Shown piece after piece: positions 2,306 to 18,920 of a stretch of 48,036 nt of DNA (position 1 is the stretch's first letter; every line of letters starts with the position of its first letter). Source of the DNA: a virus. A program made the translations under genes and the position numbers. Below the pieces are notes generated by a model that saw only the letters and a program-made list of their open reading frames with translations, was not told where the DNA came from and searched no databases. The stretch spans positions 1-48,036 of IMG/VR virus record IMGVR_UViG_3300018082_000013, one strand, 5' to 3'.

Positions 2306-2320
2306 AAAAGGCGAAGGCTC

Positions 2321-2339: not shown

Positions 2340-2354
2340 GGGAGGGACAACGCC

Positions 2355-5759: not shown

Positions 5760-5875
5760 GATGGCTCGTGTTCGTGTTCGGCGGTATGTGTCTCTTGGGT
5801 CTGCTCTTCGGTTGCTCGACGGTCGAACAGATACACGACGTAGACTCCCCGCTCGACGAAGCACATCGGTTCTGA
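5744..5875 (+). CDS. Tiny putative lipoprotein
   Basis: 43 residues: basic start MWPIVRW, hydrophobic core, and a lipobox-like LLFGC at residues 20-24, followed by a short polar mature part (STVEQIHDVDSPLDEAHRF). This would be a membrane-anchored lipoprotein with about 20 mature residues. Overlaps the preceding gene by 16 nt and hands over to the next by TGATG, which supports reality. It could be a minimal outer-spanin-like or immunity protein; no evidence chooses. Confidence 0.55.
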   Translation: MWPIVRWLVFVFGGMCLLGLLFGCSTVEQIHDVDSPLDEAHRF

Positions 5876-6225
5876 TGGACCTGTCGTCTATCGAGGCCGT
5901 GAAGGCGAAGGCGGCTCGGGCCAAGGCGCGTCGAGCGCGCACGAGGAGGGAGCAATTTTCAAGCTGTAGCGGCTGCGGACGGTTCGGCCTGGTCCTCAAG
6001 AAGAGTTTGTGCTCGGAGTGCATTCGCGTAAATGAAATCATGGAGAGAGACATGGCACAGAAGAAGCTGAGTGGAGGATCATCGCGCGGAGACAAGCTGC
6101 CGACCGTGGGCAAGTTGTTCCTGCTCCCGAAGCGCGAAGCGAAGACTCCCGATAAGCCAATCGAGTCACCTAAGCCACAACTCGAAGGCAGAGCACCGCG
6201 CCCGCAAGACGGGGAAGAAGTATAG
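5875..6225 (+). CDS. Zinc-ribbon protein with shared C-terminal GRAP-DEEV tail
   Basis: 116 residues. Residues 5-28 are a basic helix (EAVKAKAARAKARRARTRRE), followed by a CSGC ... CSEC zinc ribbon, a flexible linker, and the C-terminus LEGRAPRPQDGEEV. That tail recurs in at least six other proteins of the window. The start is the ATG in the TGATG overlap after the lipoprotein. The basic helix plus ribbon suggests nucleic-acid binding; the tail suggests docking to a common partner. Both are inference. Confidence 0.72.
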   Translation: MDLSSIEAVKAKAARAKARRARTRREQFSSCSGCGRFGLVLKKSLCSECIRVNEIMERDMAQKKLSGGSSRGDKLPTVGKLFLLPKREAKTPDKPIESPKPQLEGRAPRPQDGEEV

Positions 6226-6740
6226 TGCCTTCGCTCGGTGACGGATTCAGCATGGACACAGCGAATGTTTGCCTCTGTGGTCATTGGAGCGCGTCGCATC
6301 GTGGTGGTGGTAAGGCAACGTGCGAGGGTATGCGCTGTGGCTGTTACACGTTCAGGCAATTGACCACGGAGAACTGCGGGGTCGGGGTGAACCTGCCCAA
6401 GTGCCCGAAGTGCGGGTCAGTGCTCACGGGCCGGACCGTGACGCTCGGAGCGCGCGGTATGACACTGATCGTAGAATGGAAGCACCTGATGGGTAACTCG
6501 TGCAAGACGATCGAGCAAGTCAAGATGGACGAAGAAGCGGCAGAGCGGATCAAGGCTGAAGCACGTCAGCGCAACACATTTGGTGACGCCGGGGCGTTCG
6601 ATGAAGACGAGTTCGAGTACGAGTACACACTGGACGATCCGGTAGGAGCGAAAGCCAAGGCGCGGGCCGTCCCGAAGCCTGAGCCGCCAAAGCCTGAACT
6701 GACTGGACGCGCCCCGCTGGCGTTGGAGGAAGAGGTATGA
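6225..6740 (+). CDS. CxC-H-H zinc-domain protein with shared C-terminal tail
   Basis: 171 residues from a GTG overlapping the upstream TAG; ATG 6252 is an alternative. An N-terminal metal-binding module CLCGHWSASH ... C ... CGC is shared with the proteins at 10606 and 18429. A second CPKCGS knuckle follows, then an acidic stretch (DEDEFEYEY), an Ala/Pro linker and the tail LTGRAPLALEEEV. No enzymatic motif. The repeated use of this module and tail in one genome suggests a lineage-specific protein family. Confidence 0.75.
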   Translation: MPSLGDGFSMDTANVCLCGHWSASHRGGGKATCEGMRCGCYTFRQLTTENCGVGVNLPKCPKCGSVLTGRTVTLGARGMTLIVEWKHLMGNSCKTIEQVKMDEEAAERIKAEARQRNTFGDAGAFDEDEFEYEYTLDDPVGAKAKARAVPKPEPPKPELTGRAPLALEEEV

Positions 6741-6916
6741 CCGAATATGTGAAGATGTACGCGTGGCTCATGCGTCGGGTGTTCAAGACGAAGAATTTTT
6801 ACGTCGCCTGGGATCGGTCGAAGAGCCCGGCCGGTGAGCATAGGCTGGACGAGTTCGACTTCTGGCTGACGTTCTATCAACTACTCGCATATGACATGGA
6901 GGGAGAAAATGGCTGA
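6737..6916 (+). CDS. Small hypothetical protein
   Basis: 59 residues, ATGA-coupled to the previous gene. Aromatic-rich (KNFYVAWDRSK, FDFWLTFYQLLAYDM). The stop overlaps the next start by 8 nt, and its own last codons supply the GGAGGGAG ribosome-binding site of the next gene. No family recognised. Confidence 0.6.
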   Translation: MTEYVKMYAWLMRRVFKTKNFYVAWDRSKSPAGEHRLDEFDFWLTFYQLLAYDMEGENG

Positions 6917-7076
6917 GCAAGAGATCAAGACTGTGACGTTCAGCGTGGACGTTACCGAGGCTCTGCTGGCGACGATGCAGGGCAGCGACATAGCCCGCGA
7001 GAACGTACGGAACATCCTGTACAAGCGGGTCGATGACTTCATCGCCGAGGCCCTGGCGCGGACCTACTCGTCATGA
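6909..7076 (+). CDS. Small hypothetical protein
   Basis: 55 residues with an excellent ribosome-binding site (GGAGGGAG). Pattern beta strand (IKTVTFSVDV) then two helices ending FIAEALARTYSS. Too short for assignment. Coupled to the next gene by ATGA. Confidence 0.65.
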   Translation: MAEQEIKTVTFSVDVTEALLATMQGSDIARENVRNILYKRVDDFIAEALARTYSS

Positions 7077-7393
7077 TCACCTGGCGTAAGGGCTACAGAT
7101 CGGTGGGCAACCCGCCACACAGCACGGTCGAAGTCGAGGAGGGGATCATCGAGCGGACTGAGTACGAGACACTGCTCCGCGCGATCGAGATACTAGCGAA
7201 GGGTTTGGGCATGAACCCCGAGCACTTGGCTGAAGTTCGAGCACTCGGCAAGGTGGAGCCGAAGCCGACCCCGAAGCGGTATCAGGATCGACCGCATCCG
7301 TCAGCCTGTGAGCGGTATGACCCGATCATGATGTGCGATTGCTGGCCGACTCGCATGGAAGCCGAGATTGCTGAGTGGAGGGTACGAGGCTGA
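7073..7393 (+). CDS. Hypothetical protein
   Basis: 106 residues. A central helical pair (YETLLRAIEILAKGLG, HLAEVRALGKV), a Pro-rich linker, and a C-terminal MMCDCWP. ATGA-coupled upstream and TGATG-coupled downstream. No family recognised. Confidence 0.65.
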   Translation: MITWRKGYRSVGNPPHSTVEVEEGIIERTEYETLLRAIEILAKGLGMNPEHLAEVRALGKVEPKPTPKRYQDRPHPSACERYDPIMMCDCWPTRMEAEIAEWRVRG

Positions 7394-7632
7394 TGGACAC
7401 CAACAAACGCCTGAAGCTGATAGACATAGGCTACCGTATCCTGAACACGTGCGGCTCGTGTGTGTCGTTCAGGACGAACGGTGTAATGGGCTCGGGGTTT
7501 GGGTCCTGCACGCGCTACCAGTACATGCACCTGAAGCAAGGCAGGAAAGACTTGAGCGTACATCGGTCGGGCACCTGCCCCGAGTTCGAGGCCAAAGCGA
7601 GCCTGGAAGGCTTCGAGGAGTTCAGGCGGTGA
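7393..7632 (+). CDS. Four-cysteine hypothetical protein
   Basis: 79 residues: CGSC at ~20-23, GSC at ~38, TCPEF at ~64. The arrangement and the closing CPEF/CSAY context resemble the protein at 5134-5514, suggesting a small zinc-binding family present twice. It starts in a TGATG overlap. Function unknown. Confidence 0.65.
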   Translation: MDTNKRLKLIDIGYRILNTCGSCVSFRTNGVMGSGFGSCTRYQYMHLKQGRKDLSVHRSGTCPEFEAKASLEGFEEFRR

Positions 7633-7847
7633 TGGACAGCCGAGAGTGGCAGTTCAAGGACAGATTCATCGCAGCGTTCCTGGCGGGGATGGCGGCAAAC
7701 CAGTTCGAGCAAGCGTGTCAGGACGGATGGTCAGCAGCCGCCTACAAGCGGATGTTCCCGATCGAGGACGCTGAGCAATTGGCGAATGAAGCCTGGCGAC
7801 GCTACCGTGACGAGAGCTATCCGGCCCGTAACCTGGTGCCTCGATGA
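7632..7847 (+). CDS. Small helical hypothetical protein
   Basis: 71 residues, TGATG-coupled (a GTG one codon upstream is possible). Helical throughout (WQFKDRFIAAFLAGMAANQF; DAEQLANEAWRRYRDE). No motif recognised. Confidence 0.62.
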   Translation: MDSREWQFKDRFIAAFLAGMAANQFEQACQDGWSAAAYKRMFPIEDAEQLANEAWRRYRDESYPARNLVPR

Positions 7848-8218
7848 TGGGCCGAGGGGTTGGGCGAACCTGTGCGCGCTGTGAGAAGTCGTGGGAAGGC
7901 TGAGCGGTCGAGACGACGTGCCCGCGTTGCGGGTACTGCAATGAGCCTGAGTCGCATAGCCCGAGCGACTGCCTGGCCGATCACAGTACCGGGCTGGCTC
8001 AAGGGGAGTGGTCGGACGACGGAGCCGAGTATTTCCCTACCCTGGCTGAAATCGAGGCGTCGGTGGGGTTTGCGAAGGGGGTAAATCGGGGCGATTTGGG
8101 GGTGCGCTGGCGATATCGGGGGCTCGGGAGTGGTAAGACAGCGGGAAGCCGACCCTCGCCGATCCTGGGGCATCGTAGGCGACGTAGGCACAACACGTGT
8201 GTGCTAATCACGTGTTAA
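7844..8218 (+). pseudogene. Zinc-ribbon ORF interrupted by an in-frame TGA
   Basis: From ATG 7844 the frame reads 19 codons including CARC, meets TGA at 7901-7903, and continues open in the same frame for 104 more codons to TAA 8216. The first residues after the TGA are AVETTCPRCGYC, so the two halves would together make one CxxC-x(n)-CxxC zinc ribbon. Either a nonsense mutation has broken the gene or the TGA is read through at some level. No good start exists just after the TGA. The last third (Arg-rich) is less protein-like and may be non-coding. Global TGA reassignment is excluded by normal TGA stops everywhere else. Confidence 0.45.
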
Positions 8219-8227
8219 GTAGTGTAG

Positions 8228-8263
8228 GTTCAACGCTGAACACTTACTCAACGTCTGTTGAGT
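8228..8263 (+). other. Two small hairpins just upstream of element B1
   Basis: GTTCA-acgc-TGAAC (8228-8241) and the perfect 7-bp ACTCAAC-gtct-GTTGAGT (8246-8263). The second abuts element B copy 1. No U-run follows, so intrinsic termination is not the obvious reading; an operator or RNA processing site is possible. Confidence 0.5.
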
Positions 8264-8275
8264 GGTAAAATAAAA
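8262..8275 (+). promoter_or_regulatory. Element B copy 1 (candidate late promoter, terS candidate)
   Basis: GTGGTAAAATAAAA; this copy lacks the final GAG and continues TGGTAGGGGGG, which gives the ribosome-binding site for ATG 8292. It matches five other copies that precede packaging and virion genes. Confidence 0.75.
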
Positions 8276-8291
8276 TGGTAGGGGGGACAAG

Positions 8292-8795
8292 ATGGCAGAG
8301 GGCGGCGCGACAGGTAAGGGCTTCAAGAAGGGCAAGAGCGGCAATCCAGGCGGCAAGTTTAAGGCTACGGGTTTGTCGTCACGCACGGAAGAGGCTGTAC
8401 GCAAGGCTCAAGCCATCGAAGCGTTCGGCAATGCGCTGATGACCGAGACAGCGACTAGCCTGAGCCTGGCCCCGCTGCGCCCGCTGCGCAAGGGTGAGAA
8501 GTACACGATCGAAGAGTTGCTGATGTCTCGCCCGTACATGGAAGGTGTGGTCATGCGCATGCGCCTGGGCACGGCGCCTCACCTTGAGAAGTTCGTGTGG
8601 GAGCACGTGTTCGGCAAGGCGATTCAAACGCTGAGGATCGAGAAGCCGCCCGAGTCACCTATGGCGAAGGCCATGAAGGAACTGAAGCCCGAGGAAATCA
8701 GGGTGCTTGCGCAAGCCGCTGCCCGAGTGATCGAGCTACGCAAAGCAGCAGTGATCGAAGTGAAAGCCTTACCGTCTGCTGATCCTACTAAGTAG
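8292..8795 (+). CDS. Terminase small-subunit candidate (DUF5681-like)
   Basis: 167 residues. The N-terminal GFKKGKSGNPGGKFK is the hallmark of the DUF5681-type proteins commonly encoded beside large terminases. The rest is helical, with a C-terminal coiled region (EEIRVLAQAAARVIELRK). Expected role: recognition of phage DNA for packaging. Supporting context: it is one of only six genes preceded by element B, like TerL and portal, although it is 8 kb from TerL. Its last codons and TAG stop lie within element A copy 2. Confidence 0.7.
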   Translation: MAEGGATGKGFKKGKSGNPGGKFKATGLSSRTEEAVRKAQAIEAFGNALMTETATSLSLAPLRPLRKGEKYTIEELLMSRPYMEGVVMRMRLGTAPHLEKFVWEHVFGKAIQTLRIEKPPESPMAKAMKELKPEEIRVLAQAAARVIELRKAAVIEVKALPSADPTK

Positions 8796-8796
8796 G
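8778..8796 (+). promoter_or_regulatory. Element A copy 2
   Basis: GCTGATCCTACTAAGTAGG, with C for T at position 2. The palindrome at 8784-8796 contains the TAG stop codon of the upstream gene and is followed directly by GAGGG and ATG 8809. Shows the element can be part of a coding region. Confidence 0.85.
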
Positions 8797-8808
8797 GAGG
8801 GCCAAACC

Positions 8809-8952
8809 ATGAGTGACCGACACCTGATCATGAGTGAGATCGAGAAGAGCGATGACGGTCGGCAGACGATTGATCAGACAGCCGACGCCATTGCCCGCAT
8901 CCTGAGCTTGGGGCCGGAGGATCCGTGCCGAGGTTCGTATGCTCGTGGGTGA
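8809..8952 (+). CDS. Small hypothetical protein
   Basis: 47 residues after element A copy 2 with ribosome-binding site GGGAGGG. Mostly helical (TIDQTADAIARILSLG). Overlaps the next frame by 14 nt. Assigned because element A reliably marks a real gene start. Confidence 0.6.
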   Translation: MSDRHLIMSEIEKSDDGRQTIDQTADAIARILSLGPEDPCRGSYARG

Positions 8953-9058
8953 GTCGGGCCTGGACAACGCTGACCTGGCTGACGAAATCCTCGATACGTT
9001 CGACTTCGACGATGACTTCGAAGACGACGACTACGACGAAGAGGACGACCAGGATTGA
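8939..9058 (+). CDS. Very acidic small protein
   Basis: 39 residues, of which residues 23-39 are almost entirely Asp/Glu (FDFDDDFEDDDYDEEDD). Short acidic proteins in phages can act as DNA mimics or bind basic host proteins, but nothing here proves it. The start ATG lies within the preceding gene and there is no strong ribosome-binding site, so expression would rely on coupling. Confidence 0.5.
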   Translation: MLVGESGLDNADLADEILDTFDFDDDFEDDDYDEEDDQD

Positions 9059-9145
9059 TGTTCGAGTGGCTGACGGGTGTCTGACCACATTGCTTGGTGA
9101 CCTGGGCTCAGGTCGCATGGGAGTTCATCACAAGGGGAGGGTTTG

Positions 9146-9715
9146 ATGGGAGTCAAAGGCGTTCTGACATCGAAAATGCGTGAAGCCGCTAAGGGCATCC
9201 GTGCCCCTGGACGTGAGAATGGGCCGACACTCGCCAACATGGGCGAGCCGCGTGCTCGCAAGGCGAAGCTGCGCGACGAGACACGCCAGTATACGGTCGA
9301 GGCGGTGGACCTGGCTGAGTGGGTGAGCGGTGAGAGCCGCTTCAACGTGGTCGAGATCGTGTACGACAACGCCGAGGATGCCTTCGTGGTGACGCTATCG
9401 TCGGCGAAGCAAGCCGAGCAGCCGAGGATAACGAAGCGCGACGCGTTTGTGGACAGAGACACCGAAGCACGGTTGACGAGTGGCCCACAGGTTTCGGATG
9501 ACGATGCAGGCGACATGGGCACGGCTGACGCGGTGCCTGCTATCGCATCTCGGGGTGAGCGTGACAGATTGCGCAAGCACGTGCGCTCCCGGCGTGAAAT
9601 CCTGATCGAAGCGCAGAAGCAGGGAAAGCCGGCACCGGCCGCGAGGATCACGCATCGGGAGACGGACGAAGACGATCCGGTTCCGAGCGCGCTTCCGGAC
9701 CATATCAATCGGTGA
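9146..9715 (+). CDS. Hypothetical protein
   Basis: 189 residues with ribosome-binding site AGGGGAGGG. Basic N-terminal third, a central beta-rich part (FNVVEIVYDNAEDAFVVTLSS), then a helical Arg-rich region (RDRLRKHVRSRREILIEAQK). No recognised motif. About 87 nt upstream (9059-9145) hold no convincing gene. Confidence 0.7.
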   Translation: MGVKGVLTSKMREAAKGIRAPGRENGPTLANMGEPRARKAKLRDETRQYTVEAVDLAEWVSGESRFNVVEIVYDNAEDAFVVTLSSAKQAEQPRITKRDAFVDRDTEARLTSGPQVSDDDAGDMGTADAVPAIASRGERDRLRKHVRSRREILIEAQKQGKPAPAARITHRETDEDDPVPSALPDHINR

Positions 9716-10593
9716 TGACTGGCCTCGAAGCGCAGATCGAGGTAGCGGTCGGCATCGGCATCAGTGCGCTGACCATTGGGGGTGTGTTTGGGTGGTGCTC
9801 GTTCAAGCACCGCATGCAGCCGAGTGGCACGCGCAAGTATGGCATCGTGTACACGTGCCTGAAGAATGCACCGACGTATGACATGGCGGGCAAGTTCCCG
9901 CCCGAGTCGCGCATGCCTGACCTGTACTGGCACACGCGTGCAGCGTGGGGTTGCAGAGAAACGTCGCTTGCATGGTGGGGTTGCAAGGAACCGACGCTCT
10001 TGCCGCATCCGCTCGTGTACGTGAATAAGGACGGCGAGAGCGTGACCTGTCACTGTGGCAGGCTCGTCGGTCAGTACGTGGTGACTCGCGACGCGCAGAA
10101 CGTATGGTTCCGCGCCACGGGCGAGCTAAACTGGCTGACGAGTGCAGGGCGTTCGCTGAGCGATGACGAGGCGGCTCTGGTCACCCGCAGGCAGTACGAG
10201 GCTGAGTCGATCAGGCTCAGCGGTGGACGCTTTGTGGGACCGAATGAAGAGGGGGCTCGACGATGGGAGCCCACGCCGAAGTTTACAGTCGAGACGGCTG
10301 GAATGGCGATGGGAACACGGAAAGTGATACGTTCCGAGCAAGGTGACGTGTATACACAGATCACGTGCACACGGTGTGCGAGGCAGATGTCCGAAGATGA
10401 GTTCTATACTCAGCATTTCGTGGGTACGCCCGCGACGCTGAAGTGTGAGTCAGCACTCGGGGGAATGACTACGTGGGAGCGTCTTAACGGTGTGGACCGC
10501 AAACGGCCCAAGGCTCCCGATGCGCGCGTGGTCCTGGCTGAAGCGATCGAGGCCGGCGTGCGAGCACCGTTGTCCTTCGATGGGGAAGTGTGA
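9715..10593 (+). CDS. Membrane-anchored Cys-containing protein with shared tail
   Basis: 292 residues. An N-terminal hydrophobic segment at ~9-29 (VAVGIGISALTIGGVFGWC) suggests a membrane anchor. There are two metal-knuckle-like pairs, CHCG near residue 112 and CTRC near 221, and a C-terminal tail GVRAPLSFDGEV of the shared type. It looks like a structural or signalling scaffold rather than an enzyme. In-frame sequence continues after its TGA into the 10606 gene, so limited readthrough would give a longer product. Confidence 0.7.
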   Translation: MTGLEAQIEVAVGIGISALTIGGVFGWCSFKHRMQPSGTRKYGIVYTCLKNAPTYDMAGKFPPESRMPDLYWHTRAAWGCRETSLAWWGCKEPTLLPHPLVYVNKDGESVTCHCGRLVGQYVVTRDAQNVWFRATGELNWLTSAGRSLSDDEAALVTRRQYEAESIRLSGGRFVGPNEEGARRWEPTPKFTVETAGMAMGTRKVIRSEQGDVYTQITCTRCARQMSEDEFYTQHFVGTPATLKCESALGGMTTWERLNGVDRKRPKAPDARVVLAEAIEAGVRAPLSFDGEV

Positions 10594-10605
10594 TGGGTCA
10601 AGGAT

Positions 10606-10830
10606 GTGGCACCACGCGACGCGGACGAGCCTGGACCACGCTGCACGTGTAGGCATACGAAGGCGCGGCATGCGAGTCCGGGATGTCTCGTGTACCTGGA
10701 AGACGCGTCTGAGTTCTGTCCATGCGCCGTGTACACGAAGCCTGGCTCACCCAAGGCGAAGGCTAGGGCGAAGACACTAGCCGACTTCTTCCCGGTGCGG
10801 GCCAGGCTCGCGTTCGACGAGGAAGTGTGA
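10606..10830 (+). CDS. CxC-H-H zinc-domain protein with shared tail
   Basis: 74 residues from GTG. Module CTCRHTKARH ... GC ... CPC matches the 6225 and 18429 proteins; tail PVRARLAFDEEV. The start is a problem: AAGGA sits only a few nt before the GTG, and the expected ATG in the TGATG overlap at 10593 is in another frame that stops after 19 codons. The gene is also in frame with the previous gene across its single TGA. So initiation at GTG, readthrough, or a recent frameshift are all possible. Confidence 0.6.
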   Translation: MAPRDADEPGPRCTCRHTKARHASPGCLVYLEDASEFCPCAVYTKPGSPKAKARAKTLADFFPVRARLAFDEEV

Positions 10831-11306
10831 TGGGCAGCATCGAAATACCTTTGACCGCGCTCCGTGAATGGGTGGCTACGGGCAAGAAGATCAGAGAGGT
10901 TGCTCCTATGGCAGCGATGACGACGGCAGTGAAGCAAGCGCAGGACCGCGCTATCCGTGTGCGTCGCGTGCAGCAAGTGCAGACTCTTGACGGCCGCGTG
11001 ATCATGCAGGACTTCGACTTCGAGTCGCCACGGATCATGACGACGAACGGCACCAACCTCGACGTGCCGGTGACGGCGCAGAAGCAGAAGCCGAGCGTGG
11101 CGACCGTGATGGCTGACGAGGACTTTAAGCTAGCGTGCCTGGCAGCAGGTGTCGAAATATCCAGGCGGCAGGCGTCGAAGTTCCGCAAGGGACACGGTGC
11201 AGCGTTCGCGGCACAGGAGAAGCGTAGGCTGGCAGCACTCGCATATGATCCGACACCTGTGCTCGAAGGACGCGCGCCGAGGCCCCGCGACGGCGAGGAA
11301 GTATGA
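10830..11306 (+). CDS. Hypothetical protein with shared C-terminal tail
   Basis: 158 residues, TGATG-coupled. Helical N-terminal half (TTAVKQAQDRAIRVRRVQQVQ). A region around 100-130 with EISRRQASKFRKGHG looks helix-turn-helix-like or at least basic. Tail LEGRAPRPRDGEEV is nearly identical to that of the 5875 protein but encoded with different synonymous codons. Followed at once by element A copy 3. Confidence 0.7.
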   Translation: MGSIEIPLTALREWVATGKKIREVAPMAAMTTAVKQAQDRAIRVRRVQQVQTLDGRVIMQDFDFESPRIMTTNGTNLDVPVTAQKQKPSVATVMADEDFKLACLAAGVEISRRQASKFRKGHGAAFAAQEKRRLAALAYDPTPVLEGRAPRPRDGEEV

Positions 11307-11311
11307 AGTCT

Positions 11312-11330
11312 GTTGATCCTACTAAGTAGG
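11312..11330 (+). promoter_or_regulatory. Element A copy 3
   Basis: GTTGATCCTACTAAGTAGG, preceded by GTCT as in copies 2 and 4, followed by AAGGG and ATG 11344. Begins 5 nt after the upstream stop codon. Confidence 0.85.
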
Positions 11331-11343
11331 AAGGGTAAAGCCT

Positions 11344-11625
11344 ATGCCGGGATTTGCTGAGCAATTGGACGAATCGCGCCTGGACGACGTGCTGACCTTC
11401 GAGGGCCAGTCGGTGACTCGGCGTGACGCACAAGTGCTCCTGGCGCAGATGGTGCCGGGCTCCGACCTGGTGGACGCCGTCAAGCGGATCGCACGAGCGC
11501 GCAACATGGGGTTTTCGCAGTTCGGGAGTGAGTCTCCGATTGTACCCGTTCCGCCACTGTTCGAGCCGATGCCGCTGCCCTATCCTGATAAGCGGGCGCC
11601 GCTCGACTTCGACGAGGATGTGTGA
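11344..11625 (+). CDS. Hypothetical protein with shared C-terminal tail
   Basis: 93 residues. Helical core (AQVLLAQMVPGSDLVDAVKRIARARN), a Pro-rich stretch (VPVPPLFEPMPLPYP) and the tail DKRAPLDFDEDV. No zinc motif, so the tail is not restricted to the zinc-ribbon members. Single gene between element A copy 3 and tRNA-Pro. Confidence 0.72.
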   Translation: MPGFAEQLDESRLDDVLTFEGQSVTRRDAQVLLAQMVPGSDLVDAVKRIARARNMGFSQFGSESPIVPVPPLFEPMPLPYPDKRAPLDFDEDV

Positions 11626-11649
11626 ACGGTTGAAGTGTCGTGGATACTG

Positions 11650-11725
11650 AGGGCGGTACGTCAGCGGCCAGACTTCTGGTGTCGGAAACCAGAGGACGGA
11701 GGTTCGACTCCTCCCCGCCCTACCA
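11650..11725 (+). tRNA. tRNA-Pro (anticodon CGG)
   Basis: 76 nt including encoded CCA. Acceptor AGGGCGG pairs with CCGCCCT; anticodon stem CTGGT/ACCAG encloses the loop GTCGGAA (anticodon CGG, reading CCG); T-arm GGAGG-TTCGACT-CCTCC. The base 5' of U33 is G instead of the usual pyrimidine. Confidence 0.88.
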
Positions 11726-11762
11726 TTTCGGTGAGATGTTAAAACGAAGACAGGAGGCGCAT

Positions 11763-12185
11763 ATGGGTATGTATGACGATGGTGGCAGTTCAGTGATTCT
11801 CGAAACTGCGCCGGACCGTGACGAGCGCAGACGGCGTGAGTACGAGGCGTGGATCGTGGCGAGCCGCAAGCAGGCACGACGCGAGCGCATCTACAAGCGT
11901 GTGACCTGGGGCGTAGCTATACTGATCACGCTCGGGTTACTGTTCGGCCTGATGGTCTACGTGAATCAGGCTACTGCGGCACCACCGCCACAGGAGCGCG
12001 AGCTACGGCCCAAACCCCGCGCGAGGCAGGGTGTGCCGGTCGAGCAGTCCCCGCGAAGCCTGAAGGCCGCAGAGGCGTACTGCGAGAAGGCGGGCGGATT
12101 CTGGTGGGTGGACATGGACCCCGATGGCTTGCCTGGCATGAAGGTCGTCGGGTGCCTCTGGCCTGTGCCAAAGGGGATGAAGTGA
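11763..12185 (+). CDS. Single-pass membrane protein
   Basis: 140 residues from ATG with an ideal AGGAGG ribosome-binding site; a longer frame upstream would run through tRNA-Pro. Basic juxtamembrane region (RKQARRERIYKRV), then a transmembrane helix at ~48-68 (WGVAILITLGLLFGLMVYV). The C-terminal part outside contains two Cys in AYCEKAGGFWW and KVVGCLWP, plausibly a disulfide-stabilised exported domain. Confidence 0.75.
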   Translation: MGMYDDGGSSVILETAPDRDERRRREYEAWIVASRKQARRERIYKRVTWGVAILITLGLLFGLMVYVNQATAAPPPQERELRPKPRARQGVPVEQSPRSLKAAEAYCEKAGGFWWVDMDPDGLPGMKVVGCLWPVPKGMK

Positions 12186-12645: not shown

Positions 12646-12666
12646 GAGATACGAGATAGTTCGAGC

Positions 12667-12734: not shown

Positions 12735-12743
12735 GTTTTCTTT

Positions 12744-12816
12744 GCGGCTATAGCTCAAGGAAGAGCACGTCCCTCGTAAGGACGGAGATGGTGCCTCGAA
12801 ACACCTGGCCGCGCCA
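12744..12816 (+). tRNA. tRNA-Thr (anticodon CGU)
   Basis: 73 nt with encoded CCA. Acceptor GCGGCTA/TGGCCGC, D-arm GCTC-aaggaa-GAGC, anticodon arm CGTCC-CTCGTAA-GGACG (anticodon CGT, reading ACG). The T-arm GGTG...CACC is one nucleotide short and lacks the usual TTC, so it is slightly aberrant. Confidence 0.78.
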
Positions 12817-13192
12817 GTTTGTAGAGGCCCGAGGAGAGACAAGTTCTTGGGAGCAATGGCAGGGCGTAATCTCCCCTGATCCCCTCACTGTTGAAAGGCG
12901 GTGCAACATGCGATGAAATAGGGAAAGGCCGAAAGGCTCCGGAAGAAAACTTTGTGAAATGTGGTTTTTATAAAGGTAATAGGCTGAACGAAGGGAGCCC
13001 TGCCCGGTGTTTGGGTTAGCGACAGGTGCGGGCGAGGCCGGGAAGATTCTGTGGTAAGCCTGGCGTCACGGCGGGGCATAAGAACGAGGCGACACCCAAG
13101 ACGCGCCTACTCCCTTCTATTGATCGAGAGGCCGAGCGGGAACGCTGCTCGGGGAATACGGTCAGGCGGTTTGACCCTGACCCCTCGTGACT
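12817..13192 (+). other. Non-coding spacer with stem-loops
   Basis: 376 nt between tRNA genes with no credible reading frame. Visible structure: CCGAGC/GCTCGG (13132-13152), GGTCAGG/CCTGACC (13160-13182), a short GCC-GAAA-GGC loop near 12930. Could encode a structured small RNA or be the spacer of a processed polycistronic tRNA transcript. I recognise no known RNA family. Confidence 0.45.
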
Positions 13193-13266
13193 GTGACGCT
13201 GGCCGAGTGGCAAGGCAGCGGGTTGTGGACCCGCGCAGCGGGGTTCGACTCCCCGGCGTCACCCCA
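13193..13266 (+). tRNA. tRNA-His (anticodon GUG)
   Basis: 74 nt with encoded CCA. Acceptor GTGACGC/GCGTCAC, anticodon arm GCGGG-TTGTGGA-CCCGC (anticodon GTG), T-arm CGGGG-TTCGACT-CCCCG, discriminator C as in bacterial tRNA-His. The base at -1 in the gene is T, not the G normally required opposite C73. Confidence 0.9.
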
Positions 13267-13270
13267 ATGT

Positions 13271-13343
13271 GCCGCCTTAGCTCAGTTGGCAGAGCATCGG
13301 TTTTGTAAACCGAGGGTCCGTGGTTCGATCCCACGAGGCGGCT
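13271..13343 (+). tRNA. tRNA-Thr (anticodon UGU)
   Basis: 73 nt; the discriminator T is followed by CCG, so a full CCA is not encoded. Acceptor GCCGCCT/AGGCGGC, D-arm AGCTCAGTTGGCAGAGC, anticodon arm TCGGT-TTTGTAA-ACCGA (anticodon TGT, reading ACA), T-arm CGTGG-TTCGATC-CCACG. Begins 4 nt after tRNA-His. Confidence 0.92.
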
Positions 13344-13558
13344 CCGTGCGCACGCCCTGCGAGCCGACCGGCAGGGGGAAGGAAGAGTCAGCGGGGAACT
13401 TGGTGCAAGCAGGGGAAACGCTGGCGAGGTTGGCGCGCTTCACGTCGGACTGCGACCGACGCTAAGACGACTATTTCGCGGTGGTACCCGTGTGAGCACG
13501 GCGCAACGCTGTGTGTCTCGAAGCTACGTGGACCGGGCTGGTCGGTCCCCTACCTCAC
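13344..13558 (+). other. Structured non-coding spacer
   Basis: 215 nt without a supported gene. Three strong stem-loops: CGTCGG-actgcga-CCGACG (13443-13461), CCGTG-tgag-CACGG (13488-13501) and GGACCG-ggctggt-CGGTCC (13530-13548). Two have 7-nt loops like tRNA arms, but no acceptor stem is evident. Candidate small RNA or processing spacer. Confidence 0.45.
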
Positions 13559-13632
13559 TCCGGTGTCAGCCAATGGTAGGCTAACGGACTGTTAATCCGT
13601 CAATCGTGGTTCGAGTCCACGCACCGGAGCCA
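13559..13632 (+). tRNA. tRNA-Asn (anticodon GUU)
   Basis: 74 nt with encoded CCA. Acceptor TCCGGTG/CACCGGA, anticodon arm ACGGA-CTGTTAA-TCCGT (anticodon GTT), T-arm CGTGG-TTCGAGT-CCACG, discriminator G. Last tRNA of the cluster; element A copy 4 starts 14 nt later. Confidence 0.92.
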
Positions 13633-13646
13633 AATTCTCTACGTCT

Positions 13647-13665
13647 GTTGATCCTACTAAGTAGG
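13647..13665 (+). promoter_or_regulatory. Element A copy 4
   Basis: GTTGATCCTACTAAGTAGG followed by GAGGA and ATG 13678. Its upstream flank ACGTCT is identical to the flank before GTTGA in the hairpin 5' of element B copy 1 (8251-8261). Confidence 0.85.
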
Positions 13666-13677
13666 GAGGACAGCCAA

Positions 13678-13854
13678 ATGGAAAAGGACAGAGGCAGCAT
13701 GCAGAAGCCGGTATGGGTAACGCTCGGCATGGCGACGCACTTCGGCGTCGGCATCGCGGCTGGCAAGGCGTTCGGATTCTGGTGGGGCGTGTTTTACGGT
13801 GCCTTTGCCGAGACGTGGCTGGTCTATCGGCTCGCCGCGTGGATACTCGCATGA
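13678..13854 (+). CDS. Small membrane protein
   Basis: 58 residues after element A copy 4. Two hydrophobic stretches rich in Gly and aromatics (THFGVGIAAGKAFGFWWGVF; ETWLVYRLAAWILA) could form one or two transmembrane helices. Position and size would suit a holin-like protein, but no lysis gene is adjacent. Confidence 0.65.
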   Translation: MEKDRGSMQKPVWVTLGMATHFGVGIAAGKAFGFWWGVFYGAFAETWLVYRLAAWILA

Positions 13855-13940
13855 TCAACATTCTGTGCATGATGTTGGCCTTGCGGTATTCATGATCGCC
13901 ATTTCGGTTGCGCCTGGTGAGTAAGCGTTTCCGTTGGCGC

Positions 13941-14237
13941 ATGGACAAGCAGTGCGACAACTGCCCCTTCGCCTCGAAGGGTGCGGGGCTTGCGCTGCGC
14001 CGGTCACTCAAGCCTGGCCGATGGGCTGAGATCACACAGTCAATCAGAGACGGCGCACCGTTCCATTGTCACAAGACGACTCAGGACATGGTCGAGGATG
14101 ACGACGGCGACGTGCTCGACGTGGGCGCGAAGGCACTCATGTGCGCCGGGGCACTCGCCTACGCTGAGAAGCGCGGCGTGTCGAGCCAACTGCAACGGGT
14201 GTGCGAGCGGCTGGACTCCATGAGGAAGAGAGTGTGA
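13941..14237 (+). CDS. CDNCPF zinc-binding hypothetical protein
   Basis: 98 residues from ATG 13941; a GTG at 13917 would add 8 basic residues, and neither start has a clear ribosome-binding site. The pattern CDNCPF ... LRRSLKPGRW ... GAPFHCHKT, with a later LMCAGAL, is a recurring small phage/bacterial family (compare DUF6283-type CD.CPW proteins) with probable metal-binding Cys/His. Function unknown. TGATG-coupled to the next gene. Confidence 0.7.
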   Translation: MDKQCDNCPFASKGAGLALRRSLKPGRWAEITQSIRDGAPFHCHKTTQDMVEDDDGDVLDVGAKALMCAGALAYAEKRGVSSQLQRVCERLDSMRKRV

Positions 14238-14410
14238 TGGGCGCGGCCAAGCAGAAGGCACTCGCACTCGCGGAGGGCCGCACATACATCGAAGTCAAGG
14301 ACATGCGCGGGCTGATGTTCCCGGTCACTGAGACTCCCGAGGGCGACTTGCTCGTGACGGACGGGCTGTACAAAGGCTTCAAAATTCGCACAAAGGGAGG
14401 CGCATCATGA
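14237..14410 (+). CDS. Small beta-rich hypothetical protein
   Basis: 57 residues. A beta-strand series (TYIEVKDMRGLMFPVTE, GDLLVTDGLYKGFKIRT) suggests a tiny barrel. Coupled on both sides. No family recognised. Confidence 0.62.
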   Translation: MGAAKQKALALAEGRTYIEVKDMRGLMFPVTETPEGDLLVTDGLYKGFKIRTKGGAS

Positions 14411-14517
14411 AACTAGCAATCATCGCGGTGGGAACTGTGGTGGTATTCTTGGCGCAGCTTGCTCTGCTGGCCGGGGCAATATACGTTGTAGTTCACTTCG
14501 CCGTGAAGTTCTGGTGA
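14407..14517 (+). CDS. Tiny membrane protein
   Basis: 36 residues, nearly all hydrophobic (VVVFLAQLALLAGAIYVVV): a single transmembrane helix with a short basic end. ATGA-coupled upstream and TGATG-coupled downstream, which supports translation. GGGAGG ribosome-binding site. Function unknown. Confidence 0.6.
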   Translation: MKLAIIAVGTVVVFLAQLALLAGAIYVVVHFAVKFW

Positions 14518-14738
14518 TGCAAGCCTTTGCCAAGCAAGTCAGTGTGTGGGGTGAGGAGTTCGAGGCGGTAGCAAAAGCCCTCAAGGACAAGGGCAAGCCG
14601 CAAGGTCGCATGCAGACCTGGTACTGCCACGAAGACAAGGGCTTTCATAACCTGCTCGGCAAGGTTGGTTGTGGCACATGCGCATTCTACGAAGAGCGGG
14701 TCGAATTGGACGAACCTAAACAGGAGGGAACATCATGA
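14517..14738 (+). CDS. Small Cys-containing hypothetical protein
   Basis: 73 residues, TGATG-coupled. Helical N-terminus (EEFEAVAKALKDKGK), then WYCHEDKG and a CGTC pair near residue 53, possibly a single zinc site of C-H-C-C type. No family recognised. Confidence 0.62.
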   Translation: MQAFAKQVSVWGEEFEAVAKALKDKGKPQGRMQTWYCHEDKGFHNLLGKVGCGTCAFYEERVELDEPKQEGTS

Positions 14739-15121
14739 GAAATCTGTTGCTCGCGCTACTGTCGGTGGTTTTTCTGGTCGGATGTCAGAGCGATGCGGAC
14801 ATCGCGTCGTACAACACGTCCAAGGCTGCGGACATGTTCGAGGTTGAACGCCGCGTGATCTTCTACAACGGCATCACTGGCGAGTACATCCTCGTCATCG
14901 AGGGTCGGTGCTCGCTCGGCAACAACGACACGGCACTCCGTATGAGTGTCACGTGCAAGACCGGAGATGGTGCGTACAAGAAACATTTCCTCGGCCTGTC
15001 CGACAACGTGACGTTTTTCGTCGAGCAGGTGGAGTCGAAGAAGGTGGGCGCGTACCACTATCGGGTGATCTTCAAGCCACAGACCGTTATCCCGGACATC
15101 GACGTGCGGATTGAGAGATGA
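14735..15121 (+). CDS. Beta-sandwich-type phage lipoprotein
   Basis: 128 residues. A signal peptide with lipobox LVGC (Cys17) predicts a lipid-anchored, exported protein. The mature part (KAADMFEVERRVIFYNGITGEY, then ALRMSVTCKTG, HFLGLSDNVTFFVEQ, YHYRVIFKPQ) matches the small lipoprotein family widely annotated in siphophages as beta-sandwich lipoprotein. Its role is unproven; superinfection exclusion or surface modification is often proposed for phage lipoproteins. GGAGGG ribosome-binding site. Confidence 0.8.
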   Translation: MRNLLLALLSVVFLVGCQSDADIASYNTSKAADMFEVERRVIFYNGITGEYILVIEGRCSLGNNDTALRMSVTCKTGDGAYKKHFLGLSDNVTFFVEQVESKKVGAYHYRVIFKPQTVIPDIDVRIER

Positions 15122-15264
15122 TCAAGCGGTGGCGCGAGCGTGACGCATGGGCGCAGTGGCACTTTGGCCTGGTCGTATGGGCCAGTCCAGAGCGATCGTG
15201 GGGTATCCGTGCGTGGTTCGGTCCGTGGTCGTGGGTAGTGAAGCGGGTGCCCCGTGGTCGGTAA
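15118..15264 (+). CDS. Small Trp-rich hypothetical protein
   Basis: 48 residues with 9 Trp (KRWRERDAWAQWHFGLVVW, AWFGPWSWVVKRV), basic overall, possibly membrane-associated. ATGA-coupled to the lipoprotein. No family recognised. Confidence 0.58.
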   Translation: MIKRWRERDAWAQWHFGLVVWASPERSWGIRAWFGPWSWVVKRVPRGR

Positions 15265-15448
15265 GACAGGCAAGGCACGACTCGAAGCCGCGATGAAACG
15301 GGTGTTCTCGGCTGTGCTCGACTACGACGGCGTTCGACCCGAGTTCGTCACGCTGCGGCAGGACGACATGGAGGCCCTGTTGATTGTGTTCAAAGAGAAG
15401 GCGATGGTCCTGGTCACTGCGCCCGATATGCACCCGGAGCAGCGGTGA
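15254..15448 (+). CDS. Small hypothetical protein
   Basis: 64 residues from GTG, overlapping the previous gene by 11 nt. Helix (KARLEAAMKRVFSAVLDY) then strands (EALLIVFKEKAMVLVTAP). TGATG-coupled to the next gene. Function unknown. Confidence 0.58.
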   Translation: MVGKTGKARLEAAMKRVFSAVLDYDGVRPEFVTLRQDDMEALLIVFKEKAMVLVTAPDMHPEQR

Positions 15449-15783
15449 TGTCGGCGCCAGTGAACACGCCGAAGACGGGGCAGATAGTCTACAAGAACTA
15501 CACGCCCGCTGTCGTGGGCACGATCATCGCGGTGCTGAGCGAAGGTGATGACGATGCCCGTTGGCCCCGCGTCCAGGTGAAGTGGGACAACAAGAAGCGC
15601 GGGACGACCGAGGAGACGACGCTCGGCCTGGCAGACTACGAAAGCCTGGTCGAGGAGCACGAGCGCAAGGCGAAGAATCATCGAGCGACCCTGGCCCGGA
15701 TTCAGCGTGAGCGGGTGCGTGAGGTACTGGCGACAACGGATGGCCTGAGCCGGTTGGTTCAGGAGAAAATGGGGAGGGCATAA
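15448..15783 (+). CDS. Hypothetical protein, beta N-terminus and coiled C-terminus
   Basis: 111 residues. The N-terminal part (GQIVYKNYTPAVVGTIIAVL, RVQVKWDNKKRG) looks like an SH3/KOW-type beta fold; the C-terminal half is a charged helix (ESLVEEHERKAKNHRATLAR). Coupled on both sides. Function unknown. Confidence 0.65.
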   Translation: MSAPVNTPKTGQIVYKNYTPAVVGTIIAVLSEGDDDARWPRVQVKWDNKKRGTTEETTLGLADYESLVEEHERKAKNHRATLARIQRERVREVLATTDGLSRLVQEKMGRA

Positions 15784-15965
15784 TGCCAATGTATAGCATC
15801 GAGTTTGGGTTCGATGATGACATTTCGTTTGCCAAGGAGATCGTTGCTGACTCCTTCGAGGATGCGCTGAAGAAGGCGCGTGACATGTCCACCAGGAAGT
15901 TGCTGGCGAAGGACGTGGAGTGGTTCGACGGGCACGCGATTGTCAAGGGGGTGCACCTGCGATGA
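15783..15965 (+). CDS. Small alpha/beta protein (tandem paralog 1)
   Basis: 60 residues. Pattern YSIEFGF ... AKEIVADSFEDALKKARDM parallels the next gene's YRIVSGD ... EKVKAESYEEAFAKALDA, so the two are probably a tandem duplication. Starts in a TAATG overlap and ends in ATGA. Confidence 0.62.
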   Translation: MPMYSIEFGFDDDISFAKEIVADSFEDALKKARDMSTRKLLAKDVEWFDGHAIVKGVHLR

Positions 15966-16171
15966 TCACGTACAGAATCGTGTCTGGCGACATGGACGAG
16001 AAAGTGAAGGCAGAGAGTTACGAGGAGGCATTCGCCAAGGCACTCGACGCTGCTGAACGTAAAGGCAAGGCGAAGAATCTCGGGTTGCTGTTCGAGATAA
16101 TCGTCAAGGGCGAGCCAACACGATACGCGGACACAAGCAAGCAACTGAAACAAATGGGGAGGATGGAATGA
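15962..16171 (+). CDS. Small alpha/beta protein (tandem paralog 2)
   Basis: 69 residues, coupled upstream (ATGA) and downstream. Same strand-helix layout as the preceding protein with an extra strand (GLLFEIIVKGEP) and a polar tail. Function unknown. Confidence 0.62.
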   Translation: MITYRIVSGDMDEKVKAESYEEAFAKALDAAERKGKAKNLGLLFEIIVKGEPTRYADTSKQLKQMGRME

Positions 16172-16821
16172 TCTACACATTCAGCCGTGAGATGGTCGAG
16201 TTCGGGTTGGACCTGACTGAGCCGTACGCTCTGATCAGCATTTCGACTCCAGCCGTGTACGGGCCAAAGGGAAATGCACAAGGCTTCAACATGGACGATC
16301 ATGCTGCCGCCCTGCCAGCAGACGAGTTCCGTCTGGACATTCTGCGGCTGGCGTTTTGGGACGTGGATGAAAGCGATCTCAGGAGCCTGGGGAGCGACAA
16401 GTGGCAGGCACAGGTGCGGCTGTACTCGCCCGAGGATGCGCGCAGGGTTGCGGCGTTTGTGCGGGCCTGGGCGGTCAACCTGGTCATTCACTGTGATGCC
16501 GGTATCAGCCGCTCGCAGGGTATGGCGGCTGCGATCAGTGATCATCTGGACGTGCCTGTGAAGCACTCGACGCCGGGTATGCCCAACCGTCACGTGTACC
16601 GCATAACCTGGGAAGCCCTGCGACCGCGTGTGCTGTCATCGAAGCTGGCTCCGAATTCGCCCGCGCTCGTGCCGTTCAAGTACGAAGACGCACCTGTCAT
16701 CCCGCAGACGCGTCCGCTGAGAGAGTCAACTCGCCGAGACCCGTACAAGATCAGATTCACGAAGGACGGCGCGGTCGAGAGGTACGAGCGACAAGACAAG
16801 GGGGTAAAGGTGGTAAAATAA
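16168..16821 (+). CDS. Cys-based (dual-specificity-like) protein phosphatase
   Basis: 217 residues. Residues 105-116 read LVIHCDAGISRS, the HC-x5-R P-loop of protein tyrosine/dual-specificity phosphatases with nucleophile C109 and R115. An upstream Asp-containing loop (FWDVDESD, 63-70) may give the general acid. The last ~60 residues are basic and unrelated to the fold. Expected activity is phosphoester hydrolysis in the cytoplasm; the substrate may be protein or RNA. Its final codons and TAA stop lie inside element B copy 2, so the phosphatase gene runs into the TerL promoter. Confidence 0.8.
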   Translation: MIYTFSREMVEFGLDLTEPYALISISTPAVYGPKGNAQGFNMDDHAAALPADEFRLDILRLAFWDVDESDLRSLGSDKWQAQVRLYSPEDARRVAAFVRAWAVNLVIHCDAGISRSQGMAAAISDHLDVPVKHSTPGMPNRHVYRITWEALRPRVLSSKLAPNSPALVPFKYEDAPVIPQTRPLRESTRRDPYKIRFTKDGAVERYERQDKGVKVVK

Positions 16822-16826
16822 AAGAG
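16810..16826 (+). promoter_or_regulatory. Element B copy 2 (candidate late promoter, terL)
   Basis: GTGGTAAAATAAAAGAG, a perfect copy, ending only 2 nt before the terL ATG. If the conserved TAAAAT acts as a -10-like box, the transcript would begin at or almost at the ATG. Confidence 0.8.
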
Positions 16827-16828
16827 AC

Positions 16829-18379
16829 ATGCGGCTGATCAATCAGCTTGACCCGATTCAATCTGTCGAGGAGAGCCCGGACGAAATCCTCACGCTCGGG
16901 TGTCAGAACGATCTTGAGACGTTTGTCGAATTCGCCTGGCCTACCGTCGTTCGTGCCGCGAAGTTTCAGAACAACTGGCATATCGGGGCAATCTGCGAAC
17001 ACTTGACCGCGCTCTACAAGTTGGATTTCAAGAACCTCCTGATCAACGTCCCGCCCCGGTTCGGCAAGTCGGTCATCTCGTCGGTGATGTTCCCTGCGTG
17101 GCTGTGGCTTCAGGACCCGAAGCTGCGCATGCTCTACTCGTCCTACTCACAACCGCTCGCGACGCGTGACTCGCTGTACACGCGGCAATTGATTCAGAGT
17201 CCGTGGTATCAGGGGCAGTGGGCAGATCGCTTTACGATTGCCGGCGATCAGAACGAGAAAATGCGCTTCGAGAACACCGACAAGGGCTATCGGCTCGCCA
17301 CGTCGGTTGCGGGTGCCAACACTGGAGAGGGTGGCGACCTGATCGTCTGCGACGACCCACACAACGTGGCCGAGGCTGAGTCAGACCTGAAACGGGAAGA
17401 GGCCGTACGGTGGTGGAACGAAGTCATGAGCACCCGAGGCAACGACCCACGCACCGCTCGACGCGTGGTCATCGCGCAGCGCGCCCACTTCGCCGATCTG
17501 TCACAGGACATCCTGGACAAGGGCGAGTACGTGCACTTGAATCTGGCGATGGAGTTCGAGAAGGGTGCAAAGCTAATCAGCGTCCCCTCGGGGGTGCAAT
17601 GGCTGCCAACCGAGGTAGACGAACGCGTAGAAGACGGCGAGTTACTGTGGCCGGCGCGCTACGATACTGCGTGGGTTGCAGCGCAGAAGATCGCGATGGG
17701 CAGCTACGCCTACGCTGCGCAGTTCCAACAGCGTCCGACCCCGCGTACGGGCGGCATGTTCAGCCGCGACAAGATCGTCATTGATACCCTGCCCCTGGAG
17801 CTACGCCTGGAAAAGGGATGGGACGACGCGGTGTGGTCCTGGGATATGTCGTTCAAAGACTTGGCGGACTCAGACTATGTGGTCGGTCAGTGCTGGATTC
17901 GAAAAGGCGGCATGTTCTACCTGATCCACCAGACACGAGCGCGTATGGCGTTCTCAGCCACGAAGGCGGCTGTGCGCACGACCCGAGCGAAGTTCACGAG
18001 GATCACCCGTATCCTCGTCGAGGACAAGGCGAACGGCACCGCCGTGATTGATGACCTGCGTACGACCATCCCTGGCCTGACCCCTGTCGAGCCGATGGGC
18101 GGCAAGGAAAGCCGAGCGTCCACGGTCGAGCCGCTGTGGGAGTCGGGCTGTATCGTCCTGCCGATGGGCGCCCCGTGGGTAGAGGACTTCATTCAGGAGT
18201 GCGCTGAGTTCCCTCGGGGAGCCTACGACGACCAGGTGGACGCTATGTCACAGGCCCTTGTGTGGCTCTTAAACCGATACAACATGCCGGGCGGGGCGTC
18301 GGTCGGTAGCTTCACGAAAAGCACGCTCCCCTGGCAGCGAGGCCCACAACAGGGGTACAAGGACCCCCGAGGCGAGTGA
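16829..18379 (+). CDS. terL: Terminase large subunit
   Basis: 516 residues with both motor halves. ATPase: Walker A NVPPRFGKS (73-81) and Walker B DLIVCDDPHN (170-179). RNase H-like nuclease: SWDMSFKDLADSDYVVG (~335-350), VEDKANG (~405) and DDQVDAM (~470), giving the three acidic clusters. It packages concatemeric DNA into proheads and cuts it. Start at 16829 is the only Met consistent with the N-terminal alignment of such proteins; there is no real Shine-Dalgarno site. It stands alone between element B2 and element A5, far from the TerS candidate. Confidence 0.96.
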   Translation: MRLINQLDPIQSVEESPDEILTLGCQNDLETFVEFAWPTVVRAAKFQNNWHIGAICEHLTALYKLDFKNLLINVPPRFGKSVISSVMFPAWLWLQDPKLRMLYSSYSQPLATRDSLYTRQLIQSPWYQGQWADRFTIAGDQNEKMRFENTDKGYRLATSVAGANTGEGGDLIVCDDPHNVAEAESDLKREEAVRWWNEVMSTRGNDPRTARRVVIAQRAHFADLSQDILDKGEYVHLNLAMEFEKGAKLISVPSGVQWLPTEVDERVEDGELLWPARYDTAWVAAQKIAMGSYAYAAQFQQRPTPRTGGMFSRDKIVIDTLPLELRLEKGWDDAVWSWDMSFKDLADSDYVVGQCWIRKGGMFYLIHQTRARMAFSATKAAVRTTRAKFTRITRILVEDKANGTAVIDDLRTTIPGLTPVEPMGGKESRASTVEPLWESGCIVLPMGAPWVEDFIQECAEFPRGAYDDQVDAMSQALVWLLNRYNMPGGASVGSFTKSTLPWQRGPQQGYKDPRGE

Positions 18380-18400
18380 TCGGCAGAATGTCACTGTTCT

Positions 18401-18419
18401 GTTGATCCTACTAAGTAGG
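18401..18419 (+). promoter_or_regulatory. Element A copy 5
   Basis: GTTGATCCTACTAAGTAGG, 21 nt after the terL stop, followed by GGGGAG and ATG 18429. Confidence 0.85.
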
Positions 18420-18428
18420 GGGAGTCTT

Positions 18429-18920
18429 ATGGGTGTAAGCGACGGCGGTGAGGGGTGGGTGTTTCAGGCTCCTTGGGCGCCTTGGGATGCCGCGCAGCCG
18501 AAGCCAACCACGCGCCAGCCGATCGACCAGGACATGTGCAAGTGCGGACACGCATACCCCGAGCACAAAGCCAACGGGTGCAGCTTCCGCGAGACGGTGT
18601 TTGCGGACATTGCGCGGAACGGTCCTTCGGGGCCGCAGTGCGAGTGCAAGAAGTTCGAGTTCCGGTACGGGACGGACATGGCCCGTCTGGAAAAGGTGAT
18701 GAAGGACATCATGGCCTTGACGTTGGCGAAGCAGGACGTGACGTTGCAGGACATCGAGAACATTTTGCGCCCGGTGCTTGTGGGAGAGCCGAAGCCGATT
18801 TACGTGGATCGACCCGTGCCAGCGCCGGCTGAGCCAGTGCAGAAGGTGGTCGATCGGTTGTTCTCGGTCAAGCCGACACTCGAAGGACGCGCATCGTTTA
18901 ACCTGGACGAAGAGGTATGA
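18429..18920 (+). CDS. CxC-H-H zinc-domain protein with shared C-terminal tail
   Basis: 163 residues. N-terminal module CKCGHAYPEH ... GC ... CECKKFEF is the clearest example of the window's CxCxH-x4-H zinc family. It is followed by a helical coiled part (ARLEKVMKDIMALTLAK), a Pro-rich linker and the tail LEGRASFNLDEEV. Headed by element A copy 5. Domain order (zinc module, linker, tail) is the same as in the 6225 protein. Confidence 0.78.
   Translation: MGVSDGGEGWVFQAPWAPWDAAQPKPTTRQPIDQDMCKCGHAYPEHKANGCSFRETVFADIARNGPSGPQCECKKFEFRYGTDMARLEKVMKDIMALTLAKQDVTLQDIENILRPVLVGEPKPIYVDRPVPAPAEPVQKVVDRLFSVKPTLEGRASFNLDEEV

Follow-up and report, generated by a model that had tools for sequence, protein, structure and literature searches.

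The stretch of viral DNA analysed here, 48,036 nt long and hereafter the window (IMG/VR virus record IMGVR_UViG_3300018082_000013, positions 1 to 48,036), is part of a soil phage genome of ~101.8 kb and encodes seven otherwise different proteins that share a C-terminal peptide, termed the tail in the following. A near-identical and complete genome, G001 (IMGVR_UViG_3300018079_000001; 101,821 bases), matches the window at all positions probed, with their order circularly shifted. The seven C-termini had been put forward by an original prediction made from the letters of the window alone, and all of them are encoded exactly, on the plus strand, with stops at 6225, 6740, 10593, 10830, 11306, 11625 and 18920. 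Five further bearers lie beyond the window in G001 (window coordinates for the first seven lines, G001 coordinates for the others; aa, amino acids).

5875..6225, plus strand: coding sequence of 116 aa; Cys4 zinc-ribbon-like body and Pro-rich linker; tail LEGRAPRPQDGEEV (tail and stop, 6181-6225)
6225..6740, plus strand: coding sequence of 171 aa; GTG start overlapping the preceding stop; Cys/His-rich; tail LTGRAPLALEEEV (6699-6740)
9712..10593, plus strand: coding sequence of about 293 aa; N-terminal hydrophobic segment, two Cys pairs; tail GVRAPLSFDGEV (10555-10593)
10606..10830, plus strand: coding sequence of 74 aa; zinc-binding-like, CxCxH..C..CxC; tail PVRARLAFDEEV (10792-10830)
10830..11306, plus strand: coding sequence of 158 aa; tail LEGRAPRPRDGEEV (11262-11306)
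11344..11625, plus strand: coding sequence of 93 aa; no Cys; tail DKRAPLDFDEDV (11587-11625); tRNA-Pro next at 11650
18402..18920, plus strand: coding sequence of 172 aa (163 aa if from 18429), directly after the terminase gene; zinc-binding-like, CxCGH..C..CxC; tail LEGRASFNLDEEV (18879-18920)
Stop 58093: ends ..QGRAKVSTDEEV
Stop 59389: ends ..TRALTIADEEV
Stop 60703: ends ..SRPVLRFDEEV
Stop 61299: ends ..TRARLAFDEEV
Stop 61685: ends ..QRAPIAFDEEV

The bearers beyond the window include a Cdc48-type AAA+ ATPase (544 aa) and the adjoining DUF3150 protein (314 aa). The bearer with its stop at 61685 is the least secure of the twelve, since its tail lies on a 44-codon open reading frame that continues in frame after the TGA (next base C) of an 82-codon gene (G001 61302-61685; L026:1302-1685). 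In this single record, either the tail is added by stop-codon readthrough or the gene has recently been split.

Occurrence and conservation of the tail

Among the 152 proteins of G001, predicted by our own gene calling (dynamic programming on codon usage), 12 end in R[AP]x(2-6)[DE]x(0-1)[EDN]V, whereas 0.03 proteins are expected by chance from composition and 0.07 when each tail is shuffled, so that a chance origin is rejected. The same pattern occurs at only 2 internal protein positions in 29,787 residues. The tails share a core of about ten residues, R-A-x-Φ-x-Φ-[DE]-E-E-V (Φ, hydrophobic). Hence, the consensus GRAPLxFDEEV initially proposed described a real tail in slightly too narrow a form, as three tails (RAPRPQDGEEV, RAPRPRDGEEV and RAKVSTDEEV) are devoid of the hydrophobic pair. 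Searches with PHROGs and Pfam revealed no domain common to the bearers in the window, which rejects homologous bodies as the source of the shared tail. A small Cys/His pattern, CxCxH..(H)..C..CxC, is common to the proteins at 6225-6740, 10606-10830 and 18402-18920, and similar small zinc-binding-like proteins bear a tail in the phage locus L058.

The tail is under selection as a protein sequence. Across the twelve tails, all four Val codons (GTA, GTG, GTC and GTT), both Glu codons and four Arg codons are used, followed by TAA, TAG or TGA, and between the tails ending at 6225 and 11306, synonymous differences affect 7 of the 13 codons they share, in addition to one residue change (Q/R). A repeat at the DNA level is rejected because the codons differ between tails.

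The original prediction had further tied its case to enrichment of the tail in related phages, and the relatives do keep it. In G004, L053 (= G006) and L054 (= G007), in which terminase or ATPase is 66-73% identical, counterpart genes retain the tail: the DUF3150 counterpart ends ..ARAITLADENV, that of a 164-aa protein ..MRAKIRFDDDDV, and the protein at the position of the SWIM-like protein ..GRARNAFDEEV, while the G007 counterparts of the proteins ending at 6225 and 6740 terminate in ..GRAPKVHDGEEV and QRAPREDEEIV, and a zinc-ribbon protein of G004 in ..GRAPLVLDGREV. For two small proteins, compared with relatives whose ATPase is 71% identical, the tail is far better conserved than the body (9/13 versus 42/124 identical residues between the 6225 protein and its G007 counterpart; 10/13 versus 47/145 for the SWIM-position protein). 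The ATPase tail is kept less well in the relatives (..GRARRDETA), and that of the 164-aa protein is conserved no better than its body (tail 4/12).

Among 2.9 million viral contigs, the exact sequence is restricted to this phage: a strict DNA pattern for RAxΦxFDEEV-stop matched no virus beyond it, and a looser pattern matched the same two contigs only, along with seven scattered cellular sites, mostly in very short or implausible frames and one of them without a stop codon. A general phage motif is thus rejected.

The ATPase cassette and tail dialects

A tail on the AAA+ ATPase and the DUF3150 protein is the setting that is widespread among many phages. The 544-aa ATPase matches PF00004 (2e-7) and exhibits an AAA core with conserved Walker/SRH motifs in a tandem Cdc48-like fold; its AlphaFold model (mean pLDDT 90.9) is closest to p97/Rix7 among PDB folds, and 31 of 45 family members match the CDC48 family. 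PF11348 (DUF3150) is matched by 9 of 25 family members (best E 5.8e-23), and the 314-aa protein of G001, which lacks a direct match, belongs to DUF3150 via the family alignment only. Its model comprises long helices and a disordered tail, and a fold search against the PDB returned nothing significant. Small DUF1257- and DUF2997-type proteins lie between and beside the two genes. The two Pfam families occur in 15 and 24, respectively, of 43 further records with the ATPase; of 14 control genomes, Synechococcus alone has them. In the ATPase and DUF3150 models, the tail falls below pLDDT 50 and is disordered while the rest of the chain is predicted confidently, which fits free docking peptides. 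Docking of the ATPase tail within its own chain is rejected, as it is not seen in the monomer model.

An alignment of 24 DUF3150 sequences, which share 13-66% identity with the G001 protein, has a single invariant column, namely R305, the Arg of the tail. A C-terminal R-x(1-3)-Φ-[DEN] terminates 15 of these 24 sequences and 21 of 45 ATPases, compared with 0-6 and 2-11 for windows further upstream. In other phages, the ATPases terminate in TGRALDI, EGRVLDL, VRSLDL, QSRSINLN, SRGLALEL and similar peptides, those of the cultured mycobacteriophage Catdawg and Rhizobium phage L338C in KVRVLDL and KRAGMSLDS. Moreover, the ATPase tail persists in phages without detectable DUF3150, and DUF3150 is hence disfavoured as the receptor, which leaves the ATPase ring, DUF1257/DUF2997 or a host protein as candidates.

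Within a genome, the tails co-vary. The tail of an ATPase resembles the DUF3150 tail of the same genome more than those of other genomes (permutation p=0.0006), and strong C-terminal similarity (score 26 or more) between non-homologous genes is 10.6-fold more frequent within than between genomes, whereas control windows upstream (residues -25..-15 and -40..-30) yield ratios of 1.4 and 1.1. Tail sharing is thus strictly C-terminal. The regions covered in other phages mostly extended no further than 10 kb from the ATPase in each direction, so that bearers are undercounted there. Distinct dialects emerge: seven proteins of L058, including DUF3150, a SWIM-like protein and Cys/His proteins, end in R-x-[YF]F-[DE][DE] (e.g. 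..RAYFDE); about six bearers in addition to the ATPase in L055/G008 end in RAYFED, RAYFDE, RQYFED, SRAYFED, RSYDDE and related peptides; L063 has three bearers (KRKYNFDEDL, GRSYNLDE and a terminase ending GRGYFLDES), as does L077 (SRFSLIE, SRFSFLE and SRFAFLESK). One protein of L058 (4652-5236, minus strand) starts with MSQEDSCPPRAYFESE, a copy of the local tail motif placed close to the N-terminal rather than the C-terminal end. In Rhodobacter phage RcTiptonus (L107) and Agrobacterium phage JP1 (L108), the proteins adjoining the ATPase and a few others have basic ends (..RRGRKITI, ..TRKLKLPTRK and ..TRKLRIGRK), which possibly represent a further dialect of the same tail.

Taken together, the synonymous codon turnover, the conservation in relatives, the strictly C-terminal position and the co-varying dialects bear out the constraint at the protein level that had been proposed for the tail, and they lend good support to the common docking partner suggested along with it. 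The mark for a protease or a compartment that was offered beside docking is a possible alternative, as is a host hub in the role of the partner.

Proposed docking and its alternatives

A short, disordered and strictly C-terminal peptide with an invariant anchor, which sits on unrelated bodies and co-varies within genomes, argues for a docking motif with a co-evolving receptor. On balance, we consider it more probable than not that the tail is a genome-specific docking tag recruiting diverse phage proteins to one such partner, which would most likely reside in the AAA+/DUF3150/DUF1257/DUF2997 machine. The tail would act as a short linear motif made up of an Arg anchor, two hydrophobic residues in alternating positions and an acidic terminus. 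Displayed on a flexible linker, Pro-rich or disordered, it would bring at least twelve different phage proteins to the conserved assembly of Cdc48-type ATPase, helical DUF3150 protein and small DUF1257 and DUF2997 proteins. We lean slightly towards a cassette protein as the receptor; the tail would probably bind as an extended peptide, either in trans to the ATPase ring or to DUF1257/DUF2997. The bearers, among them small zinc-finger proteins, the SWIM-like protein and, in one phage, the terminase, may thereby become clients or subunits of the machine, for which assembly, remodelling and unfolding are candidate actions. Co-evolution of tail and receptor would provide each phage lineage with its own dialect. 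In its fullest form, the proposal is a recruitment code, i.e. a C-terminal 'zip code' that marks unrelated phage proteins as clients or subunits of this co-evolving machine and whose copies on ATPase and DUF3150 are ancestral; it is advanced tentatively, at somewhat less than even chance.

Several observations weigh against this interpretation. The long acidic form of the tail is confined to the present lineage, and tails vary widely between phages, some alphaproteobacterial phages carrying basic versions. Sharing is weak in Tunturi_3, where it extends to gp96, the DUF3150 protein ending RKFHLEGEEF, and perhaps gp63, while the ATPase has no clear tail. Many ATPase-bearing phages carry the tail on the ATPase alone or on ATPase and DUF3150, and its spread to many proteins is hence a repeated, lineage-specific elaboration. 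Tail matches from the same genome rank among the top three in 9 of 24 phages, and several phages have none within the 20 kb examined. Furthermore, no receptor was found with models, which covered single chains, the tail of the ATPase is undocked on its own monomer in the model, and a host protein as receptor would yield the same pattern.

The last point leads to the best-surviving alternative, in which the tail docks on a host hub such as RNA polymerase, the replication clamp, an SSB partner or a chaperone, with ATPase and DUF3150 being brought there likewise. Host differences would drive dialects too, many bearers are small and Cys/His-rich as is typical of phage regulators, and a shared hydrophobic-acidic C-terminus binds the sliding clamp in T4 (PMC2988020). 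On the other hand, the ATPase/DUF3150 cassette is the single context that phages of widely differing hosts conserve, and the replication proteins of G001 (polymerase, RecA-like and SbcCD-like) are devoid of the tail. The clamp families PF00712 and PF09116 were not found in G001 by a search of limited sensitivity, which also missed the annotated clamp of Catdawg. We regard a host hub as unlikely.

A lower probability still is assigned to a degradation or unfolding tag, which would be recognised by the AAA+ ATPase, acting by itself or together with a host protease, so that the bearers are unfolded or degraded in the way ClpX treats proteins with ssrA-type C-termini. The ATPase core belongs to the Cdc48 unfoldase class, and the tails are C-terminal, disordered and present on many unrelated small proteins. 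However, the ATPase itself and the conserved DUF3150 protein bear the tail, no protease gene was noticed in the cassette, and the acidic DEEV end lacks the small hydrophobic terminus of ssrA-type degrons.

Targeting peptides are found on internal proteins in T4-like systems, and the tail might analogously co-package its bearers into the head. The head-maturation protease of the window (44017-46446; Peptidase_S78_2), the stop of which directly abuts the next gene, ends in GVARKFANGEEV, which resembles the last residues of the tail and is kept in the relative G004. This end follows directly after the Pfam domain without the R-A-x-Φ-x-Φ core, though, and the bearers that are conserved, a Cdc48-type ATPase and DUF3150, are not head proteins, which makes capsid targeting very improbable.

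Finally, the notion that the tail is a by-product of translation signals, EEV-stop being read as GAGGAAGT(A/G)TGA, i.e. a Shine-Dalgarno sequence plus an ATGA overlap for the next gene, is rejected as the main explanation: although the stops at 6225, 6740, 10830 and 18920 overlap or abut the next start, with GAGGA or GAAG at Shine-Dalgarno distance, it fails on the full range of Val codons and stops in use, the genes with stops at 58093 and 59389 (GTC TAA) and 60703 (GTT TGA) have no overlapping start, the stop at 11306 opens merely an 8-codon open reading frame, the terminal codons at 11625 precede tRNA-Pro at 11650 and are thus not accounted for by a start codon further on, and RAPLxFD upstream of EEV is left wholly unexplained. 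Such overlaps may shape codon choice in the four window genes.

Comparison with known systems

The closest verified precedent for docking on a common partner is provided by T4, where gp43, gp55 and gp33 dock on the gp45 clamp via highly similar, interchangeable hydrophobic-acidic C-termini, which are joined by divergent linkers to functionally different proteins and are not conserved in all relatives (PMC2988020). A hydrophobic and acidic extreme C-terminus common to several phage proteins is likewise present here. The present system works like that of T4 without being a member of it, as it differs by its twelve bearers, its Arg core and the AAA+ ATPase cassette that forms its conserved context, and as the polymerase-like protein of G001 (68092-69816) ends in KEFGLTPMPKR without a tail.

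The tip of SSB combines a disordered linker with an acidic/hydrophobic C-terminal docking peptide through which one protein contacts many partners. The analogy drawn to it by the original prediction is apt with respect to the mode of action, though here many proteins share one tail. It does not extend to sequence, since SSB tips are DDIPF-like, as on L106:27706-28506 of phage L338C, while the tails end in [DE]EV. No bearer matched an ssDNA-binding family, and the SSB-like protein of G001 (70426-71436) ends in SASRTGGRR without an SSB-type tip. In ssrA-type tagging, a C-terminal peptide is likewise paired with an AAA+ ATPase; the tails differ by being genetically encoded on many proteins, by their acidic end in place of a small hydrophobic (LAA-like) one and by the ATPase itself being a bearer. 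Judged by its sequence, the tail is neither an SSB tip nor an ssrA-type tag.

The literature searched did not mention DUF3150, and it described neither the cassette nor shared phage tails of this kind. The tails of this phage and the dialects of distant phages with the same ATPase suggest a hitherto undescribed docking code centred on an unstudied machine. Through the tail, this AAA+ cassette, which occurs widely in phages, becomes accessible by sequence, and its likely clients can be named. If docking holds true, a code on up to twelve proteins with lineage-specific dialects would extend the principle of the T4 clamp epitopes, and the partners of many small uncharacterised phage proteins would become predictable from sequence alone.

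With regard to the cassette, DUF1257 and DUF2997 accompany the phage ATPase as they do in the Ycf46/Ycf35-type gene set of cyanobacteria (AAA+, DUF1257 and DUF2997), and the phage ATPase may be related to Ycf46. Elsewhere in the window, positions 2199-4836 encode an RtcB-like RNA ligase (HSGSRG motif) followed by a second RNA-ligase-like protein (VEEKVDGS motif), both assigned by motif only, and four tRNA genes lie at 11650, 13193, 13271 and 13559; the ligase-like pair together with the tRNA genes suggests tRNA repair in this phage.

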